Shown here: positions 15,081 through 49,399 of the stretch, piece by piece
Layout of the letters: every line of letters begins with the position of its first letter
Position numbering within the stretch: the first letter of the stretch is position 1
Source of the DNA: a virus
Virus record (IMG/VR): IMGVR_UViG_3300025117_000573
Location: 1-52,658 of that record
Direction: 5' to 3' (one strand)
Length of the DNA stretch: 52,658 nt
Made by a program: the position numbers and the translations under genes
Notes under the pieces: model-generated
Databases searched by the model: none
What the model was told of the DNA's origin: nothing
What the model saw: the letters and a program-made list of their open reading frames with translations, nothing else

Positions 15081-15081
15081 C

Positions 15082-20030: not shown

Positions 20031-20041
20031 GTAAATTGCCG

Positions 20042-22550: not shown

Positions 22551-23528
22551 GTGAAGATACTTTTTGTAACAGATCCAGAAGCCGACTACGGAGCCGCTTT
22601 ACTTTATCGCGGGTTGTGCACCGCTCTCGGCGAATCGAACGTAGTAGACTTTCCGTCAAAACCGACGTGGCATTCCCCGCATACCCACAAGTACACTCGC
22701 GGAGAAGTTCCGTTCTACCCAGATCACGAAGGGCTTACATCTTGGTTCGACTGGATGAAACTAACTCCAGATCTTGGTTATAACGCAGACAGAGTTCTTT
22801 CGGAGTCCGCGACATTTGACCTTACTGTTTTGTCGTCGAATCGACGAGGGGTTTGGAAAGCCTGGGACTACCTCTATCATAAAGCCAAGTTTCCGAGGGC
22901 TGTCGTTACAGATCACGAAGATCACAACCTGCTATTGACACCATCTATTGTATCCAATGTTTTGCCTATTATGTTCAAAAGGGAGTTCTTCAGTGTTCCC
23001 GTTGTCCGAGACGGCTTTAAAATTTTTCCTCTTCCGTTTAGTTGTGGATGGGCAGATCTATTAGAGCCGGGTAACCCACTCGACCCTCAAAGGTCTGGTG
23101 TGTTCCTCTCGTGCAGCATTACGCACCCACTACGCAGCATAGCGACGGCTCAGATCAACGATTTCCAACAAGGTGGGTCTGTGAACCGATGCCAGGGAGA
23201 TCGTTACGCTACGGGTCTGCGAAACGCCCTAATAGGCGTATCGGTAAGAGGGCATGGAGTCGATACTCTTAGACAATGGGAAGTCCCGTTTCACGGAGCC
23301 GCCCTTCTTACAGATTCCAGCTTAGCTATGCCTAATAATTTTGAACACGGCGTCGACTGTATTAGATACACTGACCATAGTCAACTTGGCCAAATCGTAA
23401 AAGACCTTTTAGCCGAGCCTGATATGTTACGAGACGTAGCAACGAAAGGGCAAAAGAAGTTGCTGGATTATCATACACCCAAACACAGAGCCGAATATTT
23501 TTTGGCTAGAATCAAGGAAGTAGCATGA
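22551..23528 (+). CDS. CgeB-like GT-B glycosyltransferase
   Basis: A 325-residue protein starting at GTG 22551. ILFVTDPEADYG opens a Rossmann domain. The C-terminal part has YATGLRNALIGVSVRGHG, DTLRQWEVPFHGAALLTD and GQIVKDLLAEPDMLRDVA, matching the Glyco_trans_1_2/CgeB-like family. It is paralogous to the gene at 24019: both open with F(V/L)T(D/N) and DYG, and both have a TDHED/TDMED segment. It probably transfers one sugar of the phage glycan. Confidence 0.7.
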   Translation: MKILFVTDPEADYGAALLYRGLCTALGESNVVDFPSKPTWHSPHTHKYTRGEVPFYPDHEGLTSWFDWMKLTPDLGYNADRVLSESATFDLTVLSSNRRGVWKAWDYLYHKAKFPRAVVTDHEDHNLLLTPSIVSNVLPIMFKREFFSVPVVRDGFKIFPLPFSCGWADLLEPGNPLDPQRSGVFLSCSITHPLRSIATAQINDFQQGGSVNRCQGDRYATGLRNALIGVSVRGHGVDTLRQWEVPFHGAALLTDSSLAMPNNFEHGVDCIRYTDHSQLGQIVKDLLAEPDMLRDVATKGQKKLLDYHTPKHRAEYFLARIKEVA

Positions 23529-24022
23529 TTTTCGATAAACAACCCAGGAAACGCCAGCCGTTGTCTGACCTGCGGCCACCAGATGCCGCACAAGAACCTG
23601 TTGACCCTGAATTGGTTGAGGAACTGTGTCCCCCTGTTGTGAAGTCCGATGTAAAACAGCCGGCTTTCAACGAAAAGTCAGAAATTATATTCGAAGGACC
23701 AAGGCTACCCAGTGGCATCGCAATTCGATCGGATAGACAAACGACGGCCAGGAAAGGAAAGACCCTTGTTTTTGGCTGCTTCGATAAACAACTGATTCGG
23801 AGTCTTAAGCAAGAAAACCAGCTCGTTTTTCTGGCCTTGTCTGAGAAAGAGGCCGAGTTACTTCATAGTGTAGGACTATGCGACACGATCGTCATCGCTA
23901 ACGGACTGCAACTTCCTCCGTCGGTCACTAAAGAGACTGTTGGGGGAGTTGTTCTAGGGAGTTACGGAGATGATGTTGCATCTGCCGATTCCCGCCGAAA
24001 ACTGATTGAGCATCTTATTTGA
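23525..24022 (+). CDS. Protein of unknown function between two CgeB-like genes
   Basis: 165 residues, ATGA overlap at the start and TTGA overlap at the end. The first ~75 residues are Pro/charged and probably disordered. Residues ~78-165 could be a small alpha/beta domain (TLVFGCFDK, LVFLALSEKEAELL, GVVLGSYGDD). No family recognised. Confidence 0.55.
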   Translation: MIFDKQPRKRQPLSDLRPPDAAQEPVDPELVEELCPPVVKSDVKQPAFNEKSEIIFEGPRLPSGIAIRSDRQTTARKGKTLVFGCFDKQLIRSLKQENQLVFLALSEKEAELLHSVGLCDTIVIANGLQLPPSVTKETVGGVVLGSYGDDVASADSRRKLIEHLI

Positions 24023-25179
24023 GCCGGCTACTTTTTTTAACGAATCTTGGATCGGACTACGGAGAATATTTCAATCTCCGTGGGTTTGTTAAGCTCCTCG
24101 GCAAAGATCGTGTATGGGAGTGGCCAAGAAAGAATACCTATCATGGCCTAGCTGACCACTACCCAGAACGTTACGTCGGCAATACCCATTATCTAGGCCC
24201 AAAGGGTGCTTGGGGAGAATTGTGGACTGACCCATCTCTTTATCGTTCGTGGGAACCAAGCAGATTTCCAAGCGTCCCGATGTCCGGAGACGGCCCTCTT
24301 CATTTTGTAGAACCGTTCGAGACTTACAACCCGACGTTCGAGGAGATTATAGTTGCTATAGCATCTGGCGAGATCAGCGCTATCGTTCTCGGGTCTGCAA
24401 GATGGCACAGTTCCGCTGCGTTGTCCGAGATCATGAGTGTTTTGGGTCGAGACAAGTTACCAACACTTATCTTCACCGACATGGAAGACTACTACCAAAT
24501 ACGAACGGACTTCATTGGTGCTTTCTATCCTGATGTTTACTTCAAGCGCACGTTCATCAAGCATGGCAATCCGAAAACTCTGCTAACGGGAGTCGACGTT
24601 CCCGTTCGTCCTCTTCCATTCAGCTCGATGTGGGACTTCGACTTCAAGCCGTTCGCCGAACGAACAATCGACGTGTTCTGCGTATTCGGCGCTACCCAAG
24701 TTCTTAGAAAGCTCGTTCGCGATACCGTAGTCGATACAGTAACATCTCGATTCCCGTCAGCCAAGATTATGGCTGCTGTCGGCCACCCGTTGGGGCATAA
24801 AGAGTATTTGAAAACGTTGCAAGACTCCAAGATTGTAATCGACCATCAACGCATGGGCACTGACTGTATTCGAACCTGGGAAGCCTTCGCCGCTGGCAGT
24901 TGCGTAATAGGCGACTTGCACATCGAAATGAATGATCCATTAATCCCCGGGGTTCATTTCTATCGTTACGAAAACGACATGTCTTGGCAGGGGGACCAGC
25001 AGAAGATGGATATTCTAAGGAACAGCGTAGCCTATGCTCTGGCTAATCCACAGTCTACAGAGAACGTAGCAAAGGCGGCTTACCAACATGTTCGAGAAAA
25101 GCACACCAATAAAGCCAGAGCTTTTTACATTCTGCAAGAAGCCAAAAATCTTGGTTATGATGTCGGGGACCTAGTATGA
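24019..25179 (+). CDS. CgeB-like GT-B glycosyltransferase
   Basis: 386 residues from TTG 24019. LLFLTNLGSDYGEY begins the first Rossmann domain, TLIFTDMEDYY ends it, and the second domain has IDVFCVFGATQ, KIVIDHQRMGTDCIRTWEAFAAG and a glycogen-synthase-like end. The DCIRTWEAFAAG motif corresponds to the donor-site helix of family members. It is a paralog of the gene at 22551 and overlaps both neighbours by four bases. Confidence 0.7.
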   Translation: MSRLLFLTNLGSDYGEYFNLRGFVKLLGKDRVWEWPRKNTYHGLADHYPERYVGNTHYLGPKGAWGELWTDPSLYRSWEPSRFPSVPMSGDGPLHFVEPFETYNPTFEEIIVAIASGEISAIVLGSARWHSSAALSEIMSVLGRDKLPTLIFTDMEDYYQIRTDFIGAFYPDVYFKRTFIKHGNPKTLLTGVDVPVRPLPFSSMWDFDFKPFAERTIDVFCVFGATQVLRKLVRDTVVDTVTSRFPSAKIMAAVGHPLGHKEYLKTLQDSKIVIDHQRMGTDCIRTWEAFAAGSCVIGDLHIEMNDPLIPGVHFYRYENDMSWQGDQQKMDILRNSVAYALANPQSTENVAKAAYQHVREKHTNKARAFYILQEAKNLGYDVGDLV

Positions 25180-26156
25180 GAACTATCGTAACAGGAGCCG
25201 CTGGTTTTATTGGGAGTCATCTAACTGACGAGCTGCTTCGTAGAGGCCACACTGTGGTAGGTATCGATAATCTGTCTACCGGCAGTATCAAGAACCTGCA
25301 AAACGCATTTAAAGATAGTGGATTCAACTTCTACGTAGATGATGTCGGAGCATACGACGGCAAACGAGTTTTACAAGATAGCATGGCAGTAGCAGATGTA
25401 GTCTTTCATCTAGCCGCTGTCGTAGGCGTAAAGAAGGTTGTTGCAGAGCCAGTTAATACTATCCGTACAAACGTGCGCGGAACTGAAAATGTGTTAGAAA
25501 CTGCGTCAGAGTTCGGCGTCCGAACCGTGATAGCTAGCACATCTGAAGTTTACGGGCTAAGTGACAAAGTTCCATTTACGGAGTCATCCACGCTGTGCTT
25601 GGGAGAGACTACGAAAAGTCGATGGGGGTACGCCTGTTCCAAAGCCTTAGACGAATTTCTTGGCTTTGCGTACCTGGAAGAAAAGAAACTTCCGGTAACA
25701 GTCGTCAGATTCTTCAACTGTTCCTGGGCTAGACAGTCCTCGCAATACGGAATGGTGCTACCAACGTTTATTCAAAACGCACTGGAGAATAAGCCACTTC
25801 TGGTTCACGGGACTGGGGAACAAGTTAGATGTTTTGGCGCCGCGCCCGATTACGTAGACGCAACGATTTGTGTGTCAGAATTTAGTCATACAATTGGCGA
25901 AGTTTACAATATCGGAAATCCAGATCCCGTGACAATTAACGAACTTGCTACGCGAGTTCTAGCTGCTATTCCAAGTTCGACATCGGAGATTAAAAGAATC
26001 TCGTACGACGAAGCTTACGGTAAGAAGTTCCAAGACATGGCTATCCGTATTCCAAGCGTCGAAAAAATACGTCGGGACACCGGATGGGCACCGACAAAAA
26101 ATCTAGACGACATCATCCGCTCAATACTCAACGAAAGATTACCGCTTGGCGCGTAA
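25176..26156 (+). CDS. NAD-dependent sugar epimerase/dehydratase (extended SDR)
   Basis: 326 residues. VTGAAGFIGSHL carries the dinucleotide-binding GxxGxxG at 7-13. FHLAAVVGV, the active-site STSEVYG (~121-127) and Tyr152/Lys156 in YACSK complete an extended short-chain dehydrogenase. VRFFNC and CFGAAPDYVDA match UDP-glucose 4-epimerase/GDP-mannose-dehydratase relatives. It would supply or interconvert nucleotide sugars. It overlaps the next gene, also an SDR, by 11 bases. Confidence 0.88.
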   Translation: MRTIVTGAAGFIGSHLTDELLRRGHTVVGIDNLSTGSIKNLQNAFKDSGFNFYVDDVGAYDGKRVLQDSMAVADVVFHLAAVVGVKKVVAEPVNTIRTNVRGTENVLETASEFGVRTVIASTSEVYGLSDKVPFTESSTLCLGETTKSRWGYACSKALDEFLGFAYLEEKKLPVTVVRFFNCSWARQSSQYGMVLPTFIQNALENKPLLVHGTGEQVRCFGAAPDYVDATICVSEFSHTIGEVYNIGNPDPVTINELATRVLAAIPSSTSEIKRISYDEAYGKKFQDMAIRIPSVEKIRRDTGWAPTKNLDDIIRSILNERLPLGA

Positions 26157-27147
26157 CATCCTTGTAACTGGTGGATCAGGATTTATCGGCCATCATATTT
26201 GCCGAGAACTACGAGACTTAGGCCATCGAGTCACAAGTGTTGACTCTATGGTTGGTGGGCGTAATGTAGTTCCAGGAGTTCCCCTCCTAGTGGGAGATAT
26301 TTCTGACCACGCATTCGCTAGGTATGTAGCAGATGTTACAAAGCCAGAAATTATCGCCCATCTTGCTGCCGACCCGCGAGAGGGGGCGTCATGGTATCGA
26401 ATCGACTCAGTAACAAGAAACAATCTCGGAGCCTTTTCATCTATCGTAGAGGCGTGCCTTCGCCACAAGTTAAAGCGAATCGTATCTTTTTCTAGTATGT
26501 CTGTTTACGGAGATCAGATGCCTCCGTTTACGGAAGATATGCCAACTAAGCCAGTCGATCCATACGGAGTAAACAAGGAAGCTATCGAGAAAACAACACG
26601 GATGATAGCAGATGCTCACTCCTTAGACTGGTGCATCGTCCGACCGCACAACGTAATAGGCCCAGGCCAGTTTGTAGACCCTCTACGAAACGTCGCCACA
26701 ATTCTAGCCAACAAGGCAGTTGCTGGGGAGCATATGACTGTATACGGGGACGGGTTACAGACAAGGGCGTTTTCGAACATCCAAGATTCTCTTAGTTGTT
26801 ACATTAAGTGTATTCTTTCTTCCGACGCCAACGGGCATACGTTTAACATCGGGGGGGAAGTCAAAACAACAGTCCTTGCGATGGCTGGGATTATTCAAGG
26901 ACTTGTTCCGAACGCAAAGATCGAACACCTGCAAAGCCGGTACGGGGAAGTAAAACACGCTTTTTGCGACCACACAAAAGCAAAACAATTACTTGGGTTC
27001 CGCGAGAACATTGGGTGGGAACAAGCTGTAATCGATATTGTGGATTGGGTAAAACGTTGTGGCCCATTTCCCTGGGAGCCAACCCTACTGTCTACTCCGT
27101 GTGATAAGGCCCCAAAACATTGGAAGACATCTTTGTATGACGAATGA
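26146..27147 (+). CDS. NAD-dependent sugar epimerase/dehydratase (extended SDR)
   Basis: 333 residues from TTG 26146, starting inside the previous SDR gene. GGSGFIGHH is the cofactor loop, AHLAADP the following strand, SFSSMSVYGD the catalytic Ser/Thr region, and Tyr140/Lys144 in DPYGVNKEA the catalytic pair. IVRPHNVIGPGQ follows as in UDP-glucose 4-epimerases. Two consecutive SDR genes suggest a two-step conversion of a nucleotide sugar, for example dehydration then epimerisation; the substrates cannot be read from sequence. Confidence 0.87.
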   Translation: MARNILVTGGSGFIGHHICRELRDLGHRVTSVDSMVGGRNVVPGVPLLVGDISDHAFARYVADVTKPEIIAHLAADPREGASWYRIDSVTRNNLGAFSSIVEACLRHKLKRIVSFSSMSVYGDQMPPFTEDMPTKPVDPYGVNKEAIEKTTRMIADAHSLDWCIVRPHNVIGPGQFVDPLRNVATILANKAVAGEHMTVYGDGLQTRAFSNIQDSLSCYIKCILSSDANGHTFNIGGEVKTTVLAMAGIIQGLVPNAKIEHLQSRYGEVKHAFCDHTKAKQLLGFRENIGWEQAVIDIVDWVKRCGPFPWEPTLLSTPCDKAPKHWKTSLYDE

Positions 27148-27472
27148 CATTACAGGATTTCTAAAGACTGTAGATCACTTAGGCAGCAAAATTCCCCGGC
27201 ATCTCCAAAAAGAGCTTATCGAATATGTCGAAGAATTACGGGCCGCACTTGACGACGATGAATTAGACCTGTTCAGACGTAACATCCAACAGGACATCGT
27301 GTTTTCTTATGATTGGCAGTCGGTTACAATACTTTTGTTCTTGCAACATCTAGTAAGTGGCAACTTTGGGTTTGCTGCCGATCTTTTTGCTATATTGGCG
27401 ACCGCCGCCCAAGACGGAGACTACGACATCTTTAAACATGTACGAAACACGCTAGGCGTTTTCACTAGTTAG
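27137..27472 (+). CDS. Small helical protein of unknown function
   Basis: 111 residues from ATG 27137, which overlaps the end of the second SDR gene; an upstream in-frame start at 27059 would give an unlikely long overlap. The protein is mostly helical (IPRHLQKELIEYVEELRAAL), acidic, with a hydrophobic middle that is probably a soluble helical bundle. No family recognised. Confidence 0.6.
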   Translation: MTNDITGFLKTVDHLGSKIPRHLQKELIEYVEELRAALDDDELDLFRRNIQQDIVFSYDWQSVTILLFLQHLVSGNFGFAADLFAILATAAQDGDYDIFKHVRNTLGVFTS

Positions 27473-27474
27473 CC

Positions 27475-28161
27475 GTGTCGAACCATAAACCTACTGTTGA
27501 TGTTATTATCCCATCATCTGGACGAGCTTCATTAGCTGGTATCTACTCTGCGTGGACTAATCTTGCAAACAACGAACACGATATTGGTGTTCGCATTATT
27601 GTTGTTCAAGATGGCAAATTCCAGCTACCAAATGGCGCTCGAAATTCAAAATGGTCTGTTAAAAAACACACTGGGAATCCGGGATTTCTGGTTGGAAATG
27701 CAATTCACGGGTCAACAGCGGATTATGTGGTACATGGATTTGATGACGATCCACCATCCAACATCCATCAGCTCGTATTACGATGTCACGAAACCCGAGC
27801 TGACTGGTGCTCGTCTAAAGTAGAAGAGCTGCGCGAAGACAGGCAACCAGCTACTATTTATGATGGCATCCCAGGCGACTACCTCCTACACCGAAATACT
27901 GTGCCCCTACAGGGGTGCGTATTCAGGCGGTCATTATTCAAACGAATTCAGTTTTTCGAGCCGGATACGCCTTTTTGGAGATACGATCATGACTTTGTCC
28001 TTCGACTGCATCTTACGGGTGCTACTCACACCCACGTAGACTCGATATGTGGTTGGTGGGTAATAAACCCAGAAGGCATTACATCTACGATTTCTGATCG
28101 CGGCTACTCGATGGTGTGGCAGGACCGGCGAAGCGACGTGTGGAAGCAGTATCGTGGCTAG
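27475..28161 (+). CDS. GT2-like glycosyltransferase
   Basis: 228 residues from GTG 27475. VDVIIPSSGRASL is the nucleotide-binding strand, HGFDDDPPSN is the metal-binding acidic loop, and FRRSLFKRIQFF then WRYDHDFVLRLH form the acceptor/catalytic side. It is shorter than most GT2 enzymes, but the core is complete. It overlaps the next gene by eight bases. Confidence 0.72.
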   Translation: MSNHKPTVDVIIPSSGRASLAGIYSAWTNLANNEHDIGVRIIVVQDGKFQLPNGARNSKWSVKKHTGNPGFLVGNAIHGSTADYVVHGFDDDPPSNIHQLVLRCHETRADWCSSKVEELREDRQPATIYDGIPGDYLLHRNTVPLQGCVFRRSLFKRIQFFEPDTPFWRYDHDFVLRLHLTGATHTHVDSICGWWVINPEGITSTISDRGYSMVWQDRRSDVWKQYRG

Positions 28162-29026
28162 AGTTTTGGTATTTGATCCGTCTGACGGGATTGGCGGCGG
28201 ACAGCGCTGGAGCAAAGACTTTGCTACGTGGCTATCTGCTTTCCACGATGTTACATTCGTTGGAAACGGCGAACCCTCGCCAAAATGTGCGTATCAGTAC
28301 TTCTTCGACATGCGGCCAGTTGGAGTCCCCATATCGGCTAAGAAACACTTCACGTGGTGCCACGTCCCACTAGCTGGAACTACGGCATCCTGGATTCATC
28401 AGACTACTGTAATTGCGTCTAGCAAGTGGAGCGCAGAGCAGGTAAAATCGGCGTGGGGAATAACTCCGGTCGTCTTACCGCTATTCGGCAAGACGAGAGG
28501 GCGTACAAATAACAAGGGCGTTTTGTTTCACGGCCGACTAACTGTACCGAAGGGTGTAGCCAAAGCCGTAGAAATCTTCCGACGGGGGAATTTCGAAGTG
28601 CCAGTTACAATTGCAGGTTCAACTTGCAATACCCATAAAGATGCTTTGAAGGTGCTTAGAGAGGAATGCCGGTTTCTTGGAGTATCGCTAATCGAGGACC
28701 CGAGCGAGTCGGTTGTAGATGAACTTTACCACTCTCACAGCGTATTTTTACAAACAGCTGGATGGACTACGGGTCCGCCCGAAGCGTTTGGTCTTGCTGC
28801 TGCCGACGCTTATCTATCAGGGCTCAACGTAATTGCATATCCCGCCGGGGCTATAATTGAATGGCTGCCAAAAGAACACTGGGCGTACTCGACAGATGAA
28901 TTTGTGCTCAAAATAGATTGGGCTCTCAACAGCACTTTCGTCCCAGATCTTGATGTTTGTTTAAATATCTCGGATTACGGGTTTATCGAACGAGTCAGGG
29001 GGGTAATACCATTTCTGCTAGAGTAG
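28154..29026 (+). CDS. GT4-type glycosyltransferase, compact
   Basis: 290 residues from GTG 28154. The start has the glycine-rich VFDPSDGIGGGQRW typical of GT-B enzymes. GVLFHGRLTVPKGVAKAVEIF opens the donor domain, and GPPEAFGLAAADAYLSGLNVIAY is the donor-site EX7E-like region. The length is short for GT4 because the acceptor domain is reduced. It probably acts on the same glycan as its neighbours. Confidence 0.75.
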   Translation: MARVLVFDPSDGIGGGQRWSKDFATWLSAFHDVTFVGNGEPSPKCAYQYFFDMRPVGVPISAKKHFTWCHVPLAGTTASWIHQTTVIASSKWSAEQVKSAWGITPVVLPLFGKTRGRTNNKGVLFHGRLTVPKGVAKAVEIFRRGNFEVPVTIAGSTCNTHKDALKVLREECRFLGVSLIEDPSESVVDELYHSHSVFLQTAGWTTGPPEAFGLAAADAYLSGLNVIAYPAGAIIEWLPKEHWAYSTDEFVLKIDWALNSTFVPDLDVCLNISDYGFIERVRGVIPFLLE

Positions 29027-29028
29027 TT

Positions 29029-29640
29029 ATGATTGGTTATCGGTCGCATGAAATTGAGGACGAGACACGTACTTTGATGTTCGACATGACACCAGAAGCA
29101 CATTGTGTATTCATCGATAATACAAAAGATAACATTCCACTTACAACTCTGTGGAATCGGATCGTAAAAAATGCGGCCGAACAACTCGTGTTTCTTCTCA
29201 ATGTCGATGTATGGGTGTCTCCTGGCTGGATTATTCCCCTTCTAAAGGCATTCGAAAACCCATCCGTTTCGGTAGTTGGCCCAGGCGCAAATCAAGGCAC
29301 TAATCGAATAGACATAGGTACAAATGAAATACCAGCCAGCCCGTGCCGTGGTTGGCTAGAGAGAGCTGCTATCACAGCAATCGAACGCTACAAAGGACAA
29401 ATCCTGGACAAAGACGTTTTGGGGTTTTGTTTTGGACTACGGAGACGTACTTGGCACGAAATAGGCGGTTTTGACGAGTCCATTCCTTTTTACGGAAACG
29501 AAACAGATTACAATCGTAGAGTTGTTGCTCACGGTAAACGAGTGGTCAAATGCTTCGACTCATACGTATATCACCGAGGCAAATTCAGCTTTGACCAAGT
29601 CGATAAGGAAGAAAAGAAAAAATTAGCGCCGCCGAAATAA
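29029..29640 (+). CDS. GT2-like glycosyltransferase, last gene of the rightward block
   Basis: At least 203 residues. FLLNVDVWVSPGWI is the metal-binding acidic loop, GFCFGLRRRTWHEIGGFDESI and GNETDYNRRV the acceptor/catalytic region. The start is uncertain. ATG 29029 would cut into the first beta strand (RVVMIGY) and lacks a ribosome binding site. ATT 29011 sits 7 bases behind AGGGGGG, and TTG 28957 needs a 70-base overlap. The 3' end runs 18 bases into the last leftward gene, tail to tail. Confidence 0.7.
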   Translation: MIGYRSHEIEDETRTLMFDMTPEAHCVFIDNTKDNIPLTTLWNRIVKNAAEQLVFLLNVDVWVSPGWIIPLLKAFENPSVSVVGPGANQGTNRIDIGTNEIPASPCRGWLERAAITAIERYKGQILDKDVLGFCFGLRRRTWHEIGGFDESIPFYGNETDYNRRVVAHGKRVVKCFDSYVYHRGKFSFDQVDKEEKKKLAPPK

Positions 29641-37164: not shown

Positions 37165-37767
37165 TTAGCAATAAATTACCGGCTTGTTGTGGCCGACTGC
37201 AAATTCGACCTCCGCTTTAACACCAACACTCGTCTCCCATCCTGGCAACATCAGCACTCTTAGTTCGTCACATCGTTCTAGAAACTTCTTGTCAATTTTT
37301 TCCCAAAACCCCCAATCACCGGGCAGACTCCCCGTAAGCACGTGACTGTTGATGATTGGTGAGTATACGGCCAGTCCTGATCTAACAAGTTCGGATACCT
37401 TGTTTCGAGTCTTCTCAAACCGATCTATTCTTACGCTTTCATCTGGATGGGAATACGGAGATGCAAGATAGATAAGTCCAGGTTCTTTTTGTGGATCCTC
37501 ATCGGGTTTATGCTCTTCGATAGATTGGACCACCGCTGCATATCCGGCCATGTCTACCAAGTTGTCTCGTTTATGCTTGAAGCACTCCCGGCTTAACTTA
37601 ACGACGACCATGCACAGAGCTGACTGAGCTGCTGTTACCTCGTGGTTCAGAATAATTGACCACAATTTGGCGGTTCGTCCATAGTCTTCCCACGCAGGGC
37701 CATAAGCCGAGTTTCGATCTCCCAATACAAGAGACTTAGCCTCGTCCAGTATATTTACGTTAGTCAT
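37165..37767 (-). CDS. Fusion of a phage DUF6378-like domain and a deoxyribosyltransferase-like domain
   Basis: 200 residues. Residues ~1-90 (LVLGDRNSAYGPAWEDYGRT, CMVVVKLSRE, NLVDMAGYAAV) match a domain common in phage nucleotide-metabolism clusters. Residues ~97-200 (LIYLASPYSHPDESV, AVYSPIINSH, WEKIDKKFLERCDELRVL, GVKAEVEFA) match the DUF1937/nucleoside 2-deoxyribosyltransferase-like fold. The GVKAEVEFA glutamate corresponds to the catalytic acidic residue of that fold. It is probably involved in salvage or removal of modified nucleotides. It overlaps the polymerase gene by four bases. Confidence 0.75.
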   Translation of the reverse strand: MTNVNILDEAKSLVLGDRNSAYGPAWEDYGRTAKLWSIILNHEVTAAQSALCMVVVKLSRECFKHKRDNLVDMAGYAAVVQSIEEHKPDEDPQKEPGLIYLASPYSHPDESVRIDRFEKTRNKVSELVRSGLAVYSPIINSHVLTGSLPGDWGFWEKIDKKFLERCDELRVLMLPGWETSVGVKAEVEFAVGHNKPVIYC

Positions 37768-40067
37768 CTAGTTCTTTCGTATTCGTAAGGCTTCGTATAT
37801 CCCCAGTCATTGCCAACCTCCGTATTCACAACAACAGGAACTTTCCAGTCCCATCCGCTCTCCATTATTTCTTTCAACATTGGTAACCAGTGTGACAACC
37901 GAGAAGTTTTGATCTCAAACACTATTTCGTCGTGTACGTGCAAAACAGCGTAAATGTCGTCGTGCCCAGCAATTATCGAGTCGATCTCATTTAACAGCCT
38001 TTTCAGGTGAACTGCGCACACTCCTTGTATTATACGATTCACGCCCTGATAGGCAACTCTCCTGTCTACCGGACTCTCCCAGTCAAAAACTCTTACCTTA
38101 CCTTTCTTATACACATCTGAACCTACCCGAGCCATAAAGTCGTGTAACTCGGGAATCGCTTGATCGTATCTAGCGATGAATTCCTGCGTATATTCCGGGG
38201 ACTTTCGAATCATCTTGGAAATTTTCTTGTACCCAGCTCCATAGCCCTTTGCCAGTACTACAGCCTTGGTATCCTGCCGAATCTTCGCGTCTTCTGGAAT
38301 CGACTTGTCTATCTTTCGTTGGCATATCTCTGACGCGATCGCAGCGTAGAAGTCCATATTTGGATCGGCGTTGTAACCGTCGATAAGTTTCCTTGCCCCG
38401 GCAAAGTGCGCTGTGCCTCGATTCTCGATCTGACTCATATCCATTGAAACTATCGACCAACCTTCTGGAGCCACAAACACCGATCGAACCTTTTTATCTT
38501 TCGGAATACCGTGCAGGTTGACTCGTTCGTCTTTGGTTTCTGCTCTAGTCTTGCACGTGAATCTTCCCGATTCTGTGCCCGTCGAGTGAAATGACGGGTG
38601 CACTCGATTGTTGCTATCCGTTGCGAGGGGCAAAGATTGTAAGGCACCTCCGGCGAGTAGACGATAGCTACGGTAAGCCAAGATCAGCTTAACCACGTCG
38701 CTTTCTATCAGCGAAAGTGCAAATTTTCCATAGGATGGGGACCCCGTCTTTGTCTTCTCAGGACTGTAAATTTCGAGTTGATCGAGTAGCTTGCGAGTTT
38801 GAACATGAGAACTCGGGTTGAAATCAGGGAAGTCGGGTCGAACATCGGGATGCATTCGTAAATCAGCTAAAGCGCGGTCCCTTTTAGTTTCCATGCTGCG
38901 TATAGCATCTTGGATTCGGCTAGGATCGATAAGAAACCCTCGATCCTCGATATGTTGTGACGTTTCTAGTAGTCGGCGTTCTCGGGCTATGTAGGCATCA
39001 TTTTCGTCTCGTGCCCTGGCCATATCCGGGTGATTGTACAACGCATACGTTAAAGTGGCGTCGAACAGAGCATAGGAGTTCAAATTTTCTCTGGGAATGG
39101 ACTTGAATCCGCCCGATAGAGTCTTTTCACCGCGCTCAGCTAGAATCTGCTTCAACCGTTCGTCCAATTTTCGCTTATGCGCACCGCCATTTTTGAAGTA
39201 ATAGTCGCCAAGACGTTCCAGTTTGTAGGGGCAATTCCCGCTATCGTCTGCGGACGCAGACCATTGGACGTCAAATGTTCGCCTAAGATCGACGTTCACT
39301 CCTATCGAACGGAGATGGCCACAATCAAACAGGGCGTTAGCCATTACAACCACATCGGCACTGTCAATGTCTTTTTGTAGATCAGCCCGTTCAGACGCAC
39401 TGTCTAGTTCATATAGCTTAGATAGCTTACCATCACAAGATGTTGCTATGAATGGTCGAGCATCTCGATAAAAATCGAGGCCTGTCGTTTCCGTGTCGAC
39501 TGCAATTACCCTAGCTATCGGCTTGGTAATTTCAACGATTGTAAGTCTACCTAGAGCAGACCGAAGAATTCGAGCTATCTGGTCGGTTCGGTAAATTCCC
39601 CGTTTAACAGCGGCTGGATTTGGACATGCGTAGCACTTCAACCCATGTTTGCTAACCCACCGATGACCGAGATTCTGACGAACGCCGCCACTCAATCCAC
39701 CAATCAGTTTTATCGCATGCGCTCCCATAAGAACCCACGGAAGAGACTTATATTTCTCGACTAGTGGAAGTATGTTCTTTGCTACACATACGTCCATTTC
39801 TTTTTTCGTAGCATCGCGATTTCCCGGGGTAGCGCATAGAACAGTATTCAAAAGAACAGCGTCGTGTCTTGCTAGGTCAGCCGACACCATCGCATCATCC
39901 AGTATTTCCCCGATCGGCCCAATAAAGTGCGACCCCATCATGTCTTCGATGGCTCCGGGACGGTCCCCACAAATAACCAGAAGCGGGTTACTGGGCTCGC
40001 TTGGCGATATTGGACCACGGCATGTTTGATGCAGCTCACAAGCAACACACGAAAATCGGTTCAGCAT
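37764..40067 (-). CDS. polA: Uracil-DNA glycosylase-like / DNA polymerase A fusion
   Basis: 767 residues. Residues ~5-175 resemble family 4 Fe-S uracil-DNA glycosylases: cysteines 7, 10, 78 and 94, CGDRPGAIED (33-42) and the G.HFIGPIGE motif. The second active-site segment reads CPNPAAVKR, with Asn where His is usual. Residues ~186-345 are a proofreading exonuclease (Asp191/Glu193 in DTETTG, Asp248, YALFD Asp336). Residues ~365-767 are the polymerase: GTESGRFT, motif A DMSQIENR (Asp543), motif B RQDTKAVVLAKGYG and motif C VHDE (712-714). The residue at the E. coli Phe762 position is Leu605. This is the main replicative polymerase candidate. Confidence 0.93.
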   Translation of the reverse strand: MLNRFSCVACELHQTCRGPISPSEPSNPLLVICGDRPGAIEDMMGSHFIGPIGEILDDAMVSADLARHDAVLLNTVLCATPGNRDATKKEMDVCVAKNILPLVEKYKSLPWVLMGAHAIKLIGGLSGGVRQNLGHRWVSKHGLKCYACPNPAAVKRGIYRTDQIARILRSALGRLTIVEITKPIARVIAVDTETTGLDFYRDARPFIATSCDGKLSKLYELDSASERADLQKDIDSADVVVMANALFDCGHLRSIGVNVDLRRTFDVQWSASADDSGNCPYKLERLGDYYFKNGGAHKRKLDERLKQILAERGEKTLSGGFKSIPRENLNSYALFDATLTYALYNHPDMARARDENDAYIARERRLLETSQHIEDRGFLIDPSRIQDAIRSMETKRDRALADLRMHPDVRPDFPDFNPSSHVQTRKLLDQLEIYSPEKTKTGSPSYGKFALSLIESDVVKLILAYRSYRLLAGGALQSLPLATDSNNRVHPSFHSTGTESGRFTCKTRAETKDERVNLHGIPKDKKVRSVFVAPEGWSIVSMDMSQIENRGTAHFAGARKLIDGYNADPNMDFYAAIASEICQRKIDKSIPEDAKIRQDTKAVVLAKGYGAGYKKISKMIRKSPEYTQEFIARYDQAIPELHDFMARVGSDVYKKGKVRVFDWESPVDRRVAYQGVNRIIQGVCAVHLKRLLNEIDSIIAGHDDIYAVLHVHDEIVFEIKTSRLSHWLPMLKEIMESGWDWKVPVVVNTEVGNDWGYTKPYEYERTR

Positions 40068-44009: not shown

Positions 44010-46415
44010 CTAAAGCATTCGGGCACGTATAGTATTGAGTGACTCGCGTCGAAGGAGTTTTCCGTCTTTGAATACGGGGGATAGCAAATCGGGGGATAGC
44101 AAATCGGGCGACAGATCGGGTCGGCCTTCGCCGGATAGGTCGTGGCCGTCGGTAAAACACAGACTCCCACTATCGTTTTTGTGTACCATAACTACCCCTT
44201 TAGCCGATTTTTTCGTCCCGTTATCTGTGACAGGATCCTTGAATATCGGAGTTTGGACTCCGTTTATCACACAATGCGTGGACTTCATCGCGAACCCAAA
44301 TGTGTCCCGAGTGTTATGCTGATATGTCAACGAACCTATCCCGTATACCATGTTGGTAGATGCAAATCCCTTAGCTTTTAGACGCGAACAAATTTTCTCT
44401 ACCCGTTCGAGACTTATCGCGTCCCCATAAATTGCCCCGATATGTGGGTCTAACTGTTTGAATCCTTTTAAGTTCGTTGTTCCGCCGAAAATGTCCCACA
44501 GAATTTCGATAACGCCCTTTCGAGCAGCATCAGTTTTATTACTAGCATCTCCGCAAACGATTTTTACGGGGTCCCCCGAATTTCCAGATACTAGCGACCC
44601 ACCGTTTCGTTTAACTAGTAGCATGCCCGTTGGAACTTGAACAGAATATACAACACCATCGTAATCTACAGTTTTCTTATGGACTGACTGGCCACCTAGT
44701 TTATTCGATTTAAGTATGTGGGCAGTGTAAACATCCGAAAAACAATCTTTTCGGTTGTCTTCACGACTGGTTATATATATTCCGTATCCAGCAGCTAACG
44801 CTATCAACTCAACATCAGCCATCACTCCCGGATTCGTTGTATCAAATTTGAATCTATGCTCACTTCGCCTTGTTGCATCCCAGTAGGACAATTCCTCAAT
44901 GAATTCTCTGCTCCAATTTCCACACAAATCAGATGTAGTAACCCAACCAAAGTTTTTTTGCATGATAGACTCGTCTATGTGAACGTTGAACTCAAATTTA
45001 CCATCCGATAAGTTGTATATTTTGTATTTTACTCCGACCAGGGCTAAAATATCTTTTAATCTGTCGATTTTACGTTGCTTAGAAAAACTAAATCTTATTC
45101 CGTGGCCTCTTGTAAGATAAGAACCATCAGCTTGAAATGCGATTTTAAGTCTCTCAAGTGGGGACAAAGATATGCCTCTCGACGGCATTTCCGCGCTTCT
45201 AATAATATCCTTCTCCCAAAAACCGACCCTGGCGTCTTTCGCTTCCTGGATTTTAATTTTGTGGTTTTGGTAGAATACCATTCTATGATTTGGGGTAACG
45301 AGTAAATCCAGTTTCCCCTTACCGTCGCTGAAAGAGATCATTTCTCCGGTGTAGTTTTGTTTAATATATCTAATCGGTTTAACAAATTCACGCATACCGT
45401 TTTCATGCACCTGAGCAACAAGATCGTTGTTTTCGTCCAAATCTTTGAAAAGCTTCCAACCATCTTGAGTTAAAATCATGGTGTCGTCGGCATAACAATC
45501 GGGTCTTATGACGACTTTGCCATCCCGACTAAGGATCGTGTTTTTAAGTGGAGCTATCGCGTCAGAGAGAACTTTCCACAAATCCCACGTGTCGGAAACA
45601 ATCGATATAAAGCCCTTTGGATAGACTTCGGTGATAAGACGTCGGTAGCATGACAGCTCATCTTGTCCGTGGGCGCACATCACACTGTGCTCAGTAGCTG
45701 GAATAGAACAACCGACCAACTCTTTCTCGATGTCAGCGTCGTAGTACTTTTCTAGGTACTGAATTCCGGTTATCGTGTCGGTGCCGACGAAGCTGAGAAG
45801 ATGCCCGGCGGCGCTTCGCGCTCCGCTGGCTATGCTGCTCATACCCCGCATAGAAAAGTCGTGGCCCTGAAATGGGACAAATCCGAGATCCCCGCCTGTC
45901 TCATCTGCGTAACGATCTAGTATCCGCCGATATCGCTTCGCAATTGTTGCTGAAGTCATCGACTGCCATAGTTCGGTGGATATGAGTGTCTCTAGATAGT
46001 TTGTCAGCCAAAAGAATTTTTTCTTTGTATTTTGGATCGTAAACATCGGAACCCGTATTGGCACTTCGGTTCCCTCTGGCAACGCTTTAATAAGCAGGGG
46101 AAGGTATCCCAAAGCGTGCAAGTCTCGGATGTGCTGGTCTTGTGGGTCAGAAACTCCAAGCGTATGCCTGATATACCTCGTGTATTCTGCAACCACATCT
46201 TCGACAGAACGGGCGAAGAAATTGGTACCGAAGTAGCCAATCAACCATTCTTCGATAAAACCCTGAAGCCCGAAATTGACTACATGATCGATCTCTGGAA
46301 TCCTGGAAGATCTAGGTGTCCAGGTCGAGTACACTACCTCCGTTCCTTGCGGGTATTGTTCTCGATGACTTATTTTGTAAAAGTCGCACAACAAAGTCGG
46401 GATATAGCTCGTCAT
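44010..46415 (-). CDS. nadV: NAMPT-family nicotinamide phosphoribosyl/ADP-ribosyl-transferase with intein
   Basis: 801 residues including a 306-residue intein. The spliced protein would be 495 residues, normal for NAMPT/NadV. It has DFYKISHREQYP, the active-site His243 in TEHSVMCAHG, SDTWDLW and, after splicing, VVIRPDSGDP, then KGFKQLDPHIGAIYGD. It joins nicotinamide to PRPP, giving NMN, or to ADPR-pyrophosphate, giving NAD+ directly, as in phage pathway NARP1. The Prs-like partner lies upstream in the same direction. The C-terminal region has an in-frame repeat SPDLLSPDLLSP from a 15-bp DNA duplication. Key residues appear intact. Confidence 0.93.
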   Translation of the reverse strand: MTSYIPTLLCDFYKISHREQYPQGTEVVYSTWTPRSSRIPEIDHVVNFGLQGFIEEWLIGYFGTNFFARSVEDVVAEYTRYIRHTLGVSDPQDQHIRDLHALGYLPLLIKALPEGTEVPIRVPMFTIQNTKKKFFWLTNYLETLISTELWQSMTSATIAKRYRRILDRYADETGGDLGFVPFQGHDFSMRGMSSIASGARSAAGHLLSFVGTDTITGIQYLEKYYDADIEKELVGCSIPATEHSVMCAHGQDELSCYRRLITEVYPKGFISIVSDTWDLWKVLSDAIAPLKNTILSRDGKVVIRPDCYADDTMILTQDGWKLFKDLDENNDLVAQVHENGMREFVKPIRYIKQNYTGEMISFSDGKGKLDLLVTPNHRMVFYQNHKIKIQEAKDARVGFWEKDIIRSAEMPSRGISLSPLERLKIAFQADGSYLTRGHGIRFSFSKQRKIDRLKDILALVGVKYKIYNLSDGKFEFNVHIDESIMQKNFGWVTTSDLCGNWSREFIEELSYWDATRRSEHRFKFDTTNPGVMADVELIALAAGYGIYITSREDNRKDCFSDVYTAHILKSNKLGGQSVHKKTVDYDGVVYSVQVPTGMLLVKRNGGSLVSGNSGDPVKIVCGDASNKTDAARKGVIEILWDIFGGTTNLKGFKQLDPHIGAIYGDAISLERVEKICSRLKAKGFASTNMVYGIGSLTYQHNTRDTFGFAMKSTHCVINGVQTPIFKDPVTDNGTKKSAKGVVMVHKNDSGSLCFTDGHDLSGEGRPDLSPDLLSPDLLSPVFKDGKLLRRESLNTIRARML
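44580..45497 (-). mobile_element. Intein inside the NAMPT-family gene
   Basis: Residues 307-612 of the precursor. Cys307 starts the intein (CYADDTMILTQDGW, block A), TPNH at 374-377 is block B, and VYSVQVPTGMLLVKRNGG leads to SGN at 610-612 with Asn612 as the cyclising residue and Ser613 as the +1 extein residue. The penultimate residue is Gly rather than His, a variant seen in other inteins. LKIAFQADGSYL (~423-434) resembles a LAGLIDADG motif, so a homing-endonuclease domain is probably present, perhaps degenerate. The DNA looks more AT-rich than the flanks. Confidence 0.92.
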
Positions 46416-46424
46416 TATTAAGTC

Positions 46425-46688
46425 CTATTCGTGAATTGGTTCATAAGTAAGTTCGAAGATGTAAGCCCCTACAGGCCGATTTTCACCTTTCGCATTCGTT
46501 ACTATGTAGGCGCCTGGGCACACGATGTGTCCACCATCTAAAGTTTCGATCCACCCGTGAAGATCGAACGATTCGTAGCAACGCCAGCAGGGATTCACTC
46601 GCGAAAAATGTTGGGTTACGGCCGGGTGATCTCCTAACTTTTGCCATCGAGTGGCGTCAACTTCTACAGATTTCTTCTTGTATCTCAT
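46425..46688 (-). CDS. Small phage protein of a common hypothetical family
   Basis: 87 residues from ATG 46688; an upstream frame start at 46847 would overlap the Prs-like gene. It starts MRYKKKSVEVDATRW and ends GHIVCPGAYIVTNAKGE then IFELTYEP, the pattern of a widespread phage family (PGDWI.TG..GE...F..TYE). The family function is unknown. It is placed between the two NAD+-pathway genes. Confidence 0.72.
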   Translation of the reverse strand: MRYKKKSVEVDATRWQKLGDHPAVTQHFSRVNPCWRCYESFDLHGWIETLDGGHIVCPGAYIVTNAKGENRPVGAYIFELTYEPIHE

Positions 46689-46692
46689 TTGG

Positions 46693-47463
46693 TTACCATC
46701 GTCTCGTAACTTCCCCATCTTTGGTAAAAATTCGTTTGATCCTCGCGTCTTGAAGTGGTTTAAGGCCACGGCTGAAAATTCCGTGGGTGACGTACAGATG
46801 AACTTCTGATGCGCCGTTCCGATAAAGCATCTCAGCAAATAAGACAAACGTCATGCCGCCATCGCAAATGTCGTCCACGATAAGGGTAGTTCCAGCTACT
46901 TCTCCTGTTAGACGAGTATACTTTACATGGCCGGTTCTGGGATCCCGCTTTTTGTGGCCAAATACGGTGCCGGGCTTCTTACTTCCCAACAGCTCGTCAT
47001 AGCTCTTGTCATAACGATCGGCTGCTCCCTTATCGGGATAAGCTATTGTATCCGCTCGGACTTTATTTACAGGGCCTACGAGAAACTTTTCGGGCAAAGA
47101 GTTCCATGCGTTGTCGACAAGCTCTGTCGATTTTTCGCTGTGCCCGTCGAAGAAGTACACATCGTCAAATTGACACGAGTTTAATATCCTGGAAAACGTG
47201 TGAAGCGCGAAACACGAATTATTGGTTATGCTCTTGTCTTGCCTTGCGTATGGAAGATAATCTACTCTAACGTCGCAAAATTCTGACCCGCTAGCGTCGA
47301 GTAGGTCTTTCAGCTGGCACAAGTGAAAAATTTCGGCATCGTTCTCGAACACCCACACAATTCGGTTGCGTTTACGAATAGTTCTCTTTGGCAAATGCCA
47401 TACCTGGCTTGTTCGGTCTGGAAAGATCGTCGGCTTAAGAACATGTTTGTTTATAGTTATCAT
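46693..47463 (-). CDS. prs: Ribose-phosphate pyrophosphokinase homologue (Prs/Adps type)
   Basis: 256 residues, shorter than bacterial Prs (~315). PTIFPDRTSQVW is the phage-type start, DYLPYARQDK (68-77) the ATP-binding loop, VDDICDGGMTF (196-206) the PRPP-binding loop, and VTHGIFSRG a following strand. Canonical Prs transfers pyrophosphate from ATP to ribose 5-phosphate. Phage Adps enzymes of NARP1 use ADP-ribose instead, giving ADPR-pyrophosphate for the NAMPT-like partner. The adjacent intein-bearing gene supports that pairing. Sequence alone does not separate the two substrates. Confidence 0.88.
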   Translation of the reverse strand: MITINKHVLKPTIFPDRTSQVWHLPKRTIRKRNRIVWVFENDAEIFHLCQLKDLLDASGSEFCDVRVDYLPYARQDKSITNNSCFALHTFSRILNSCQFDDVYFFDGHSEKSTELVDNAWNSLPEKFLVGPVNKVRADTIAYPDKGAADRYDKSYDELLGSKKPGTVFGHKKRDPRTGHVKYTRLTGEVAGTTLIVDDICDGGMTFVLFAEMLYRNGASEVHLYVTHGIFSRGLKPLQDARIKRIFTKDGEVTRRW

Positions 47464-47484
47464 GTTATAGATTCCGAAGATGCT

Positions 47485-47512
47485 CTAATACTCAGGATGG
47501 TCGTATTAACAA
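47485..47512 (-). promoter_or_regulatory. Possible promoter before the NAD+ genes
   Basis: On the minus strand TTGTTA (47512-47507) and TATTAG (47490-47485) are 16 bases apart, in the gap before the Prs-like gene. Each matches four of six consensus positions. A weak candidate. Confidence 0.3.
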
Positions 47513-48006
47513 TTGTCACTGGTATCGTCTCCGGGCCAGCTAGCGCCTACACCATAATTCATATCGTAGCCCCCTGCGTAGGGATCAAATGATGCGCTAT
47601 TTTTCTTACGACGTTTCGTTTTGAAAAGTTCTCTTATTATCTCAGCAGATATTTTCTTTGGTAATTTCAAGCCCTTCTTTTGAACGTAGCTATCGATTCT
47701 CCCGTCGTATTCGTAGCCCATCTTTTTAAGCAACTGTTTAACTGTATACTTCACGTTACCCCCATTTTTTTGCCCGCCGGTGAGATTTGGCGGAAAAGAC
47801 GTGGTGTTTTTTGCCTTACTTAGAATTCGTGTTTTGCGTACCTTTTGTTTGGTGTTCTCTCTTAGCCAACAGCAATCTACACAGCAGCACTCCTCTTTGT
47901 TGTGGTTGTTAGAGGCGGCTACTAGCAAACAGCAATCTACACAGCAGCACGTTTTTTCGTGGTGGTTGTTAGAGGCGGCTATTTCTGAATTTTTGGGCTT
48001 TGACAT
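47506..48006 (-). CDS. Cys-cluster protein with duplicated N-terminal metal-binding repeat
   Basis: 166 residues from ATG 48006. The N terminus has two 20-residue repeats, each AASNNH then CCCVDCC, giving ten cysteines likely to bind metal. The rest is basic (KVRKTRILSKAK; KLPKKISAEIIRELFKTKRRKK) with a SAP-like or HeH-like helical segment (VKQLLKKMGYEYDG), and the C terminus is Gly/Asp-rich. Nucleic-acid binding is plausible. It lies just upstream of the Prs-like gene. Confidence 0.68.
   Translation of the reverse strand: MSKPKNSEIAASNNHHEKTCCCVDCCLLVAASNNHNKEECCCVDCCWLRENTKQKVRKTRILSKAKNTTSFPPNLTGGQKNGGNVKYTVKQLLKKMGYEYDGRIDSYVQKKGLKLPKKISAEIIRELFKTKRRKKNSASFDPYAGGYDMNYGVGASWPGDDTSDNC
47864..47983 (-). 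repeat. Two 60-bp tandem repeats within a coding gene
   Basis: 47864-47923 and 47924-47983 are head-to-tail copies that agree at most positions (AGCAATCTACACAGCAGCAC identical in both). The main difference is a ~10-base patch in the middle. They encode the duplicated AASNNH..CCCVDCC unit. The high DNA identity points to a recent duplication. Confidence 0.92.
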
Positions 48007-48008
48007 AC

Positions 48009-48290
48009 TTAGGCTCTGACATCTTTCACGTCAAATAGGTGCCCCTGCTTCGCGTCCTCCGCAGCGATTCGTTCTGCCAGACGATCCGCGTCAACTTGAG
48101 CTTCGAGAATCTCCCTCACGGTGAGCACGTCGCCGCCGTAGGGGACATGGTCAGCCCGATCACCACAGGGCAACGTAGCCATACAGACTTCGATGTCGGG
48201 CAGACTCTCATCACAGGTATGATTGTTGGCGATGTCCGCCGCCTCGGACTCGGCCTGCCCGATGGAAAATAGCTGTCTCCGGCACAGCAC
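48009..48290 (-). CDS. Small acidic protein in a GC-rich patch
   Basis: Up to 93 residues; the start (GTG 48290) is uncertain. The C-terminal half (VLTVREILEAQVDADRLAERIAA) is helical and acidic. Three or four cysteines lie in the middle. The stretch ~48030-48280 is visibly GC-richer than its surroundings, which suggests acquisition from another genome. Function unknown. The 177 bases upstream (48291-48467) hold no convincing gene. Confidence 0.5.
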   Translation of the reverse strand: MLCRRQLFSIGQAESEAADIANNHTCDESLPDIEVCMATLPCGDRADHVPYGGDVLTVREILEAQVDADRLAERIAAEDAKQGHLFDVKDVRA

Positions 48291-48467
48291 AAACTAATTG
48301 CGTTGAAAGGTATGGATTTCACGCTAGCAGGAATACAATCGTTTATACTCTGATGTTGCCCGGCGGCATACCCGTTACAAAGCGAATAAAAACGGCTAGA
48401 ACATCTTGATTCTGGTGCGCCGTAACATCGATAGATTTGTCTAAGTTTCATCTCTGTGTATTAAAAG

Positions 48468-48848
48468 CTATCCGACTCGAAAGCTTGCCGATGGAGTTAC
48501 ATACCAACCTTCTGGGTCCAGATTTGGGTCCCGCCACACATCTTCGTTTGGTCTATTGTGTGCAAAAAATAGCTTGCCTCCTAAATACAGTCTAGCGGGA
48601 TGATCTGAGTTGCGCCACCACCAAAAATGGACCCACGGTAACACAACCCACGGAATTCGAAGAGTCCAGTCAGCTTCAACCAGCCACGGATTGTGCCCTT
48701 TCCACGAATATGGCCTTCGCAGGGGGCCCCAAACCACTCCTATCTGAATACCAAAGGTTGGAACTTGAGTTATTTGCCAACTTCCCGTGCCAGACCTAAG
48801 AGTAGTCCCGCTTGCCGAGTCGATCTGAAGCCCGATCCAGTTGGTCAT
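48468..48848 (-). CDS. Trp-rich protein of unknown function
   Basis: 126 residues from ATG 48848, in ATGA overlap with the macro domain gene. Rich in Trp, Pro and Gly (IPWVVLPWVHFWWWRN), probably a beta-sandwich or membrane-surface protein. Coupling to the macro domain gene suggests a shared role, but no family was recognised. Confidence 0.6.
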   Translation of the reverse strand: MTNWIGLQIDSASGTTLRSGTGSWQITQVPTFGIQIGVVWGPLRRPYSWKGHNPWLVEADWTLRIPWVVLPWVHFWWWRNSDHPARLYLGGKLFFAHNRPNEDVWRDPNLDPEGWYVTPSASFRVG

Positions 48849-49339
48849 CGTATACGAACACCTAATTTTTTGTTAGTAGTTGGGGGCACATATGTTTCGA
48901 TTACTACCAGTTCGATGGACGTTTCCGAGCCAACCTGTACAAGAATCTTTTTTACGTCGTCCCAAGGAAGCTTACCAAGTCCCGCCCCTATGCGGGGAAG
49001 CCCTATTTTTTCTATCCCCATAGACTTGGCCTGGCATATGGCCCCTCGTAAAGCTTTTTCTACTGCTGGTAGCTCAGCTGTCGTCATCCAAGTTTTCTGG
49101 GTCATAAGATTGAATACAACGATGCTTGTTTTGCTAGACGCTTGCCACGTAAACACATCTCCGATATTAAGCTGCCTATCGTCGCATAGCTTCCGATACT
49201 CCTTATACATGATCGGAAAGCGATTCTTAAACTCTACAGCGATGCCTCTTGCCATTCTTCCCGCGCAGTTACATCCGTGGGCAATCGCGGTTAGCCCCGG
49301 ATACGCGAACAGATCGCCTTTTACAAATTTAGTCGGCAT
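48845..49339 (-). CDS. Macro domain protein (ALC1/TARG1-like)
   Basis: About 164 residues from ATG 49339; TTG 49378 is an alternative. KFVKGDLF, AIAHGCNCAGRMARGIAVEF, VVFNLMTQKTW and IGLPRIGAGLGKLPWDDV mark a macro domain of the class that includes TARG1, DarG and Poa1. Such proteins bind ADP-ribose and remove it from protein or DNA, or dephosphorylate ADP-ribose-1''-phosphate. Lying 1.4 kb from the NAD+ genes, it could reverse host ADP-ribosylation or recycle ADP-ribose. Confidence 0.9.
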   Translation of the reverse strand: MPTKFVKGDLFAYPGLTAIAHGCNCAGRMARGIAVEFKNRFPIMYKEYRKLCDDRQLNIGDVFTWQASSKTSIVVFNLMTQKTWMTTAELPAVEKALRGAICQAKSMGIEKIGLPRIGAGLGKLPWDDVKKILVQVGSETSIELVVIETYVPPTTNKKLGVRIR

Positions 49340-49399
49340 AATTGACCGGCCGATACCAGTTACGGGTTTGCATAACAAATCTTATTTGAGCGTCGCACT

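Follow-up and report, generated by a model that had tools for sequence, protein, structure and literature searches.

The window analysed here is the whole of IMG/VR virus record IMGVR_UViG_3300025117_000573, a stretch of 52,658 bases from an uncultivated phage. On its minus strand it carries a block of genes (44010–49339) including an Adps-like and a Namat-like gene, the predicted enzymes of the nicotinamide adenine dinucleotide (NAD+) rebuilding pathway NARP1, together with a gene for a macrodomain protein. NARP1 is an established pathway (PMC12774641, which cites a Nature 2024 paper). An initial annotation of the window had placed Prs-like, NAMPT-like and macrodomain genes at these positions and on this strand, as is confirmed here, including the macrodomain start at ATG 49339 that its coordinates imply and which is the most likely start. 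It also described the pair as lying side by side; the two genes are nearly adjacent, with one small gene (46425–46688) between them. In order of transcription, the features of the block, all on the minus strand, are as follows, with the intein listed after the gene that contains it:

48845–49339, minus: macrodomain gene, DarG/TARG1/SCO6735-like, macrodomain only (open reading frame (ORF) 48845–49378 is open from TTG 49378)
48468–48848, minus: ORF of 126 amino acids without a family match; its start overlaps the macrodomain stop by 4 bases
48009–48290, minus: ORF of 93 amino acids (ORF list and locus comparison)
47506–48006, minus: Cys-rich ORF of 166 amino acids (ORF list and locus comparison)
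46693–47463, minus: Adps-like gene (ADP-ribose pyrophosphate synthetase of NARP1), Prs fold, 256 amino acids (phrog_619, tree, AlphaFold2 (AF2) model)
46425–46688, minus: small phage gene phrog_419 (E = 2e-17), between Adps and Namat
44010–46415, minus: Namat-like gene (nicotinamide ADP-ribose transferase of NARP1), 801 amino acids, comprising a 495-residue extein and an intein (phrog_448, 9w5x)
44580–45497, minus: intein coding part, Namat residues 307–612, LAGLIDADG-like, with boundaries at IRPD^SGDP

Approximately 4 bases separate Adps from the phrog_419 gene and approximately 9 separate the latter from Namat; the block is tightly spaced apart from a 177-base gap after its second gene (48468–48848). 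The macrodomain gene lies 1.38 kb upstream of Adps, in agreement with the 1.4 kb initially annotated, with three small ORFs intervening. One of these, the Cys-rich ORF (47506–48006), contains the motif CCCVDCC twice, and has no family match and no relative among the fetched loci. A longer contig, 3300025087_000941, matches the window at 100% identity across 17 kb or more and hence represents the same phage; for this reason, it was rejected as independent support for the linkage of the macrodomain with NARP1.

The Adps–Namat pair and its intein

The Prs-like protein matches phrog_619 (ribose-phosphate pyrophosphokinase; E = 2e-57) and, below the curated cut-off, the NCBIfam model ribP_PPkin (5e-25). 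The best PDB matches of its AF2 model, which was built from a 17-row alignment with a predicted local distance difference test score (pLDDT) of 87, are to human PRPS1 (E = 2e-14); PADLOC matches to PsyrT and ShosT are weak and confined to the phosphoribosyl loop. In our tree the protein is located among Namat-linked Adps, with six housekeeping Prs forming a separate branch (98% support in the Shimodaira–Hasegawa-like approximate likelihood ratio test, SH-aLRT). The NARP1 identity proposed initially is thus upheld by phylogeny, the Prs-like gene being placed apart from the ribose 5-phosphate enzymes rather than clustering with them. The loop of the window Adps reads VDDICDGGMT, compared with DDxIDTAGT or DDxIDTGGT in the housekeeping Prs displayed, and pattern matching found the DTAGT form in none of the surveyed Adps; the changed loop (DGGMT versus DTAGT) is an indirect sign that ADP-ribose, rather than ribose 5-phosphate, may be the substrate. 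Adps and Namat share one neighbourhood in the window, as Adps neighbours Namat at 78 of the 80 Namat loci surveyed, and the assignment of the window pair to NARP1 is supported at the level of sequence.

The NAMPT-like protein matches phrog_448 (E = 7e-186) and the solved Namat structure 9w5x (E = 1e-196), and its extein is about 62–63% identical, over the alignment, to the crystallographically characterised Namat of SPbetaL1. The residues of functional importance in SPbetaL1 Namat, taken from PMC12774641 and given in its numbering, include D13, Y15, F189, R192, D215, R306, D308 and D361, all of which are identical in the window protein, whilst R40, T398, R399 and D400 of the adenine clamp are kept. 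The retention of core and clamp residues contrasts with the distinct pattern of 80 phage Nampts examined as controls, which have G, A or Q at the F392 position and, in 67 of the 80, D or N at that of T398. The window resembles SPbetaL1 NARP1 in having Adps ahead of Namat, in its clade, in its catalytic residues and in the R40/T398/R399/D400 set, but differs in the gene between the pair, the active-site intein of Namat, the L and H at F392 and Y396, and the upstream macrodomain.

The length of the Namat ORF is accounted for by an in-frame intein of 306 residues (307–612), which is absent from the initial annotation. It begins with C307, ends in GN (N612) and is followed by S+1, with Gly at the penultimate position where His is usual; its excision restores IRPDSGDP, as in SPbetaL1. 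Intein profile matches are weak but agree with this, LAGLIDADG_3 (4e-4) and TIGR01445 intein_Nterm (0.002) both being below cut-off. The element is inserted directly after the catalytic D306, the equivalent of SPbetaL1 D308, which contacts the substrate ribose (PMC12774641), and unspliced Namat should be inactive. Homologous inteins are inserted at this position in Staphylococcus phage Stab20, Citrobacter phage Tr1 and the IMG/VR locus L351, and full-length matches point to Clo6, V1SA09 and others as further cases. It appears to be a homing element, present in phages whose hosts differ greatly, and its splicing might act as a switch on an enzyme of anti-defence.

The macrodomain protein

The macrodomain (PF01661; E = 6e-15) is closest by sequence to DarG (5m31; E = 2e-23) and then to TARG1 (2e-12). 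The initial assignment to the ALC1/TARG1 class was roughly right in that the protein is ALC1-like, although DarG, not TARG1, is its nearest relative. DarG is also matched by profile (PADLOC; 5e-32, positions 3–145 of 329) and by predicted fold (AF2 model, pLDDT 75; best PDB match 5m31, E = 8e-14). The active-site positions are occupied by H34, N37, Q94 and W97, numbered in the 177-residue ORF. Three of these, Q94, H34 and N37, match Gln85, H24 and N27 of SCO6735; this enzyme, for which Gln85 is reported as essential, reverses the thymidine ADP-ribosylation catalysed by DarT (PMC9411070).

The protein has the DarG scaffold (Thermus aquaticus 5m31 and Mycobacterium tuberculosis 5m3i) by sequence, hidden Markov model (HMM) and fold, with a loop of DarG length, Trp97 at the position of DarG W83 and Asn at that of N22, but has Gln in place of Lys80. 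It also differs from DarG in lacking the C-terminal DarT-inhibiting domain (profile matches stop at 145 of 329 and 150 of 338). DarT (PF14487) was found neither in the window nor in the twin contig nor in 19 related records, some of which may be fragments; with no DarT found, the possibility that the macrodomain is the antitoxin of its own DarTG pair was rejected. SCO6735 (5e3b), a thymidine-ADP-ribose hydrolase, shares with it the His, the Asn and the essential Gln85 position, whilst overall similarity to SCO6735 is lower. The K of TQKTW was considered as the counterpart of DarG K80 and rejected, as the alignment pairs K80 with Q94; since it does so, a DarG-type mechanism is not claimed. The macrodomain is best described, from its sequence, as a putative ALC1-class ADP-ribosyl hydrolase whose active site combines DarG and SCO6735 features, and not as a DarG.

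Macrodomains at NAD+-rebuilding loci

In a record of 52.7 kb, the presence of one macrodomain at a distance of 1.4 kb is not significant by itself; any significance comes from a survey. The sets comprised 80 Namat loci (the best 80 of 579), 32 Adps loci, 80 Nampt loci as a control (the best 80 of 345) and 80 bacterial Namat loci; many records are fragments, and the related phages are not fully independent of one another. The PF01661 search covered complete records in the Namat and Adps sets; a broader macrodomain HMM was seeded from NARP1-linked macrodomains, whereas the PF01661 search was not.

With PF01661, 11 of 26 macrodomain-bearing records have the macrodomain within NARP1 itself or no more than 1 kb from it, compared with 1.3 expected under uniform placement; none of 100,000 permutations gave a value as high, and with duplicates removed the count is 8 against 0.85 expected. 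The broader HMM, which found more, places a macrodomain within 2 kb of Namat in 12 of the 71 clusters (90% identity); macrodomain density there is 11.6 times that at 2–10 kb, with 11 of 11 on the same strand (p = 3e-5). Macrodomains lie between Adps and Namat in L011, L018, L043, L061 and L104, and immediately downstream of Namat, the start of one overlapping the stop of the other, in L012, L022, L031, L044 and L094; some gene starts at macrodomain loci overlap the stops of Namat or Adps. Scans starting from macrodomains often recovered NARP1 neighbours. Isolates with a macrodomain beside NARP1 include Pseudomonas phages C2-10_Ab1 (Pakpunavirus) and VCM (Otagovirus) and Acinetobacter phage Aci05; none was found in the stretches read of SPbetaL1, ICP1, Stab20, Tr1, humlepung and three others. 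In the macrodomain tree, well-supported branches force at least 6 label changes for NARP1-linked macrodomains (19 in all), and in the Adps tree macrodomain adjacency needs at least 7 changes. The macrodomain–NARP1 link is real at the population level, and the co-occurrence in related phages for which the initial annotation proposed a neighbourhood survey is found.

Most NARP1-linked macrodomains belong to one of two groups, of which the first is nearest yeast Poa1p (6lft, E = 2e-30; next match 3e-11) and the second BT1257 and SCO6735. The window macrodomain stands alone on a long branch close to the DarG references and belongs to neither group; since its lineage differs from those of the operon-embedded macrodomains, the survey supports linkage in the window by analogy only. 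The Pseudomonas phage Adele and the Pakpuna-, Otago- and Saclayvirus loci (L441, L442 and L444) likewise have a same-strand macrodomain in the NARP1 neighbourhood, but theirs is of another subclass and follows Namat either immediately or after one small gene, whereas that of the window is 1.4 kb upstream of Adps. The window Adps belongs to a clade in which, in the Namat-anchored sample, a macrodomain occurs within 3 kb at 9 of 23 loci (the window included), compared with 4 of 55 loci outside it; this richness mildly favours a functional link here.

On the data of the control set, an association exclusive to NARP1 was rejected; the association is with NAD+-rebuilding modules in general. The macrodomains at Nampt loci are mostly of one clade of 11, and nearly all the Nampt loci examined have a conserved NadM-Nudix neighbour, because of which they look like NARP2. 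In such loci the macrodomain is often adjacent, with a Nampt using phosphoribosyl pyrophosphate (PRPP) and an adenylyltransferase in place of the Adps and Namat of the window. Some NCBIfam models name NadM-Nudix proteins ADP-ribose pyrophosphatases, and freed ADP-ribose could also serve NARP2-type loci via NadM-Nudix.

Individual loci with NadM-Nudix, PRPP-type Nampt and a macrodomain at short distance on one strand are L296, L305, L306, L323, L334, L339, L340, L235, L236, L358, L362 and L371, most of whose macrodomains form one clade. In bacterial contigs, a macrodomain gene adjoins Namat in L191 (5790–11446; Flavobacterium soli) and L213 (2–1865; a Myxococcota-like metagenome-assembled genome), between or overlapping the NAD genes; these could be prophages. 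Actinobacterial Namat homologues, mostly from Acidimicrobiaceae (L188, L190, L194, L215, L221 and L223), have no Adps in the fetched stretch, and so present Namat without its customary partner.

A model for the block and its alternatives

DarT chemistry yields nicotinamide and ADP-ribosyl-DNA, and a macrodomain acting together with Adps and Namat would for that reason close a cycle of NAD+. The scheme below, including the substrate of the macrodomain, splicing of the intein and cooperation of the three proteins, is one that we infer from sequence and phylogeny. A host NADase or ADP-ribosyltransferase would consume NAD+, leaving nicotinamide and ADP-ribose, the latter free or attached to a target. 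Adps, from the known enzymology of its homologues, would convert ADP-ribose and ATP to ADP-ribose pyrophosphate, from which Namat, once spliced, is predicted to form NAD+ with nicotinamide. The macrodomain would hydrolyse ADP-ribose from its target, our best guess being thymidine-linked ADP-ribose on DNA, as for DarG and SCO6735, and would thereby both remove damage and release free ADP-ribose usable by Adps. By analogy with these enzymes, stripping of ADP-ribose from targets is plausible. We lean, with modest confidence, towards the block being a NARP1 operon with an accessory macrodomain that frees ADP-ribose from which NARP1 rebuilds NAD+, the three proteins probably working together.

The three-part association was put forward as novel in the initial annotation, but the feeding of ADP-ribose to NARP1 by a macrodomain had been proposed, as a published speculation, for phage Adele in December 2025 (PMC12846349). 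A similar logic was demonstrated experimentally, in a 2026 preprint, with RyDEP in the NARP1 operon of mycobacteriophage DyoEdafos, which yields ADP-ribose (PMC13232231). RyDEP and the window macrodomain are alike as accessory genes proposed to give NARP1 ADP-ribose; the former is a RyR-domain glycosidase acting on 2′/3′ cyclic ADP-ribose, whereas the role of the latter, a macrodomain, is putative. Iyer et al. (2022) described NADAR domains in the vicinity of NadM and NadV, and made the case that macrodomains of phages act against ADP-ribose derivatives that are soluble (PMC9503650). Relative to the literature searched, the statistics, the several macrodomain subclasses, the NARP2-type extension, the DarG/SCO6735-like form and the active-site intein in this phage are new.

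Several observations weigh against a NARP1 operon with an ADP-ribose-freeing macrodomain. The survey association, though real, is similar at Nampt loci (a macrodomain within 2 kb in 7 of 60 clusters, compared with the 12 of 71 for Namat); the Nampt enzyme does not use ADP-ribose, and the link may result from anti-defence islands that such genes share. When viral contigs were scanned with the macrodomain of the window, the twin contig alone was returned, so that no independent relative carries the macrodomain there, and among the loci compared the three ORFs between macrodomain and Adps occur in this phage only. Since a pattern scan for promoters and terminators gave nothing above the level of shuffled sequence, co-transcription of the block is something we can only infer. 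In the macrodomain, Gln94 aligns with the catalytic Lys80 of DarG, which is essential (PMC5179494), and the mobile loop of SCO6735 with its extra lysines, longer by 5 residues, is absent (17 residues from the Gln to helix AL, compared with 22). In Namat, the clamp has L at the position of F392 and H at that of Y396; its helix reads GSLTYQHNTRD, where the pattern GS-x-phi-x-phi-x-phi-TRD expects aromatics at positions 3 and 7. Amongst 108 phage relatives this clamp is unusual, the F392 position being Y or F in 105 and L in 3, and the Y396 position Y or F in 92 and H in 8. For SPbetaL1 Namat, single clamp mutations cost 1.3- to 1.7-fold and the double variant F392G/Y396K 4.3-fold (PMC12774641).

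The altered clamp bears also on whether the pair is instead a PRPP synthetase and a Nampt making nicotinamide mononucleotide, as the database names would have it and as would accord with the PRPP-dependent activity that Namat keeps (PMC12774641). The Adps clade, the altered 5′-phosphate loop, the TRD motif and the identity to crystallised Namat all oppose this, as does the lack of an adenylyltransferase among the ten neighbouring proteins searched, and we consider it very improbable. A stronger competitor, which may be correct although we do not prefer it, is that the macrodomain is an independent anti-defence gene which shares an early minus-strand block with NARP1 by chance. Macrodomains occur in approximately 40% of medium-sized phages (PMC9503650), and that of the window is not adjacent to NARP1, belongs to an isolated lineage and has no independently conserved linkage; strong and recurrent same-strand clustering of macrodomains with NARP1 in other phages, those of the window's Adps clade included, argues the other way.

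The substrate might alternatively be soluble, the macrodomain hydrolysing ADP-ribose-1″-phosphate or O-acetyl-ADP-ribose, and so recovering ADP-ribose from a RES-toxin product or a decay product of ADP-ribose pyrophosphate rather than from DNA. Such a role was proposed by the authors describing phage Adele (PMC12846349), one operon-embedded group is nearest Poa1p, an ADP-ribose-1″-phosphate phosphatase, and TARG1 deacetylates O-acetyl-ADP-ribose (PMC9411070). The window macrodomain, however, lies outside the Poa1p-like group, having Gln94 where Poa1p has Ser, with Poa1p ranked only 14th in the fold search, and we regard this as unlikely. Sequestration of an ADP-ribose-based immune signal, with no bond cleaved, seems more doubtful still: certain macrodomains serve as sensors (PMC9503650) and phage sponges for Thoeris signals are known, but the active-site His, Asn and Gln are kept, which suggests hydrolysis.

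Elsewhere in the window, a long run of plus-strand ORFs (13031–29640), unusually large for a phage, resembles by eye a set of sugar-nucleotide and glycosyltransferase genes, the starts of the ORFs being aminotransferase-, epimerase- and formyltransferase-like. A 767-residue ORF (37764–40067) appears, by eye, to be a fusion of a family A DNA polymerase with an N-terminal part that resembles uracil-DNA glycosylase and has Cys motifs.

The broader extension of the NARP1 operon model, which we hold tentatively, is that NARP1 and NARP2 operons have repeatedly recruited different macrodomain subclasses as ADP-ribose feeders, and that in this phage, where the feeder has a DarG scaffold and an active site of SCO6735 type, one module would repair DarT-modified DNA and turn the freed ADP-ribose, with nicotinamide, back into NAD+. 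Should modules that rebuild NAD+ regularly include a macrodomain as their third component, many phage macrodomains that are presently unexplained would gain a testable role, for which the survey yields named phages suited to direct tests (C2-10_Ab1, VCM and Aci05). In that case the host defences reversible by NARP1 would include, besides simple NADases, ADP-ribosyltransferases (DarT among them) and enzymes that make ADP-ribose derivatives.

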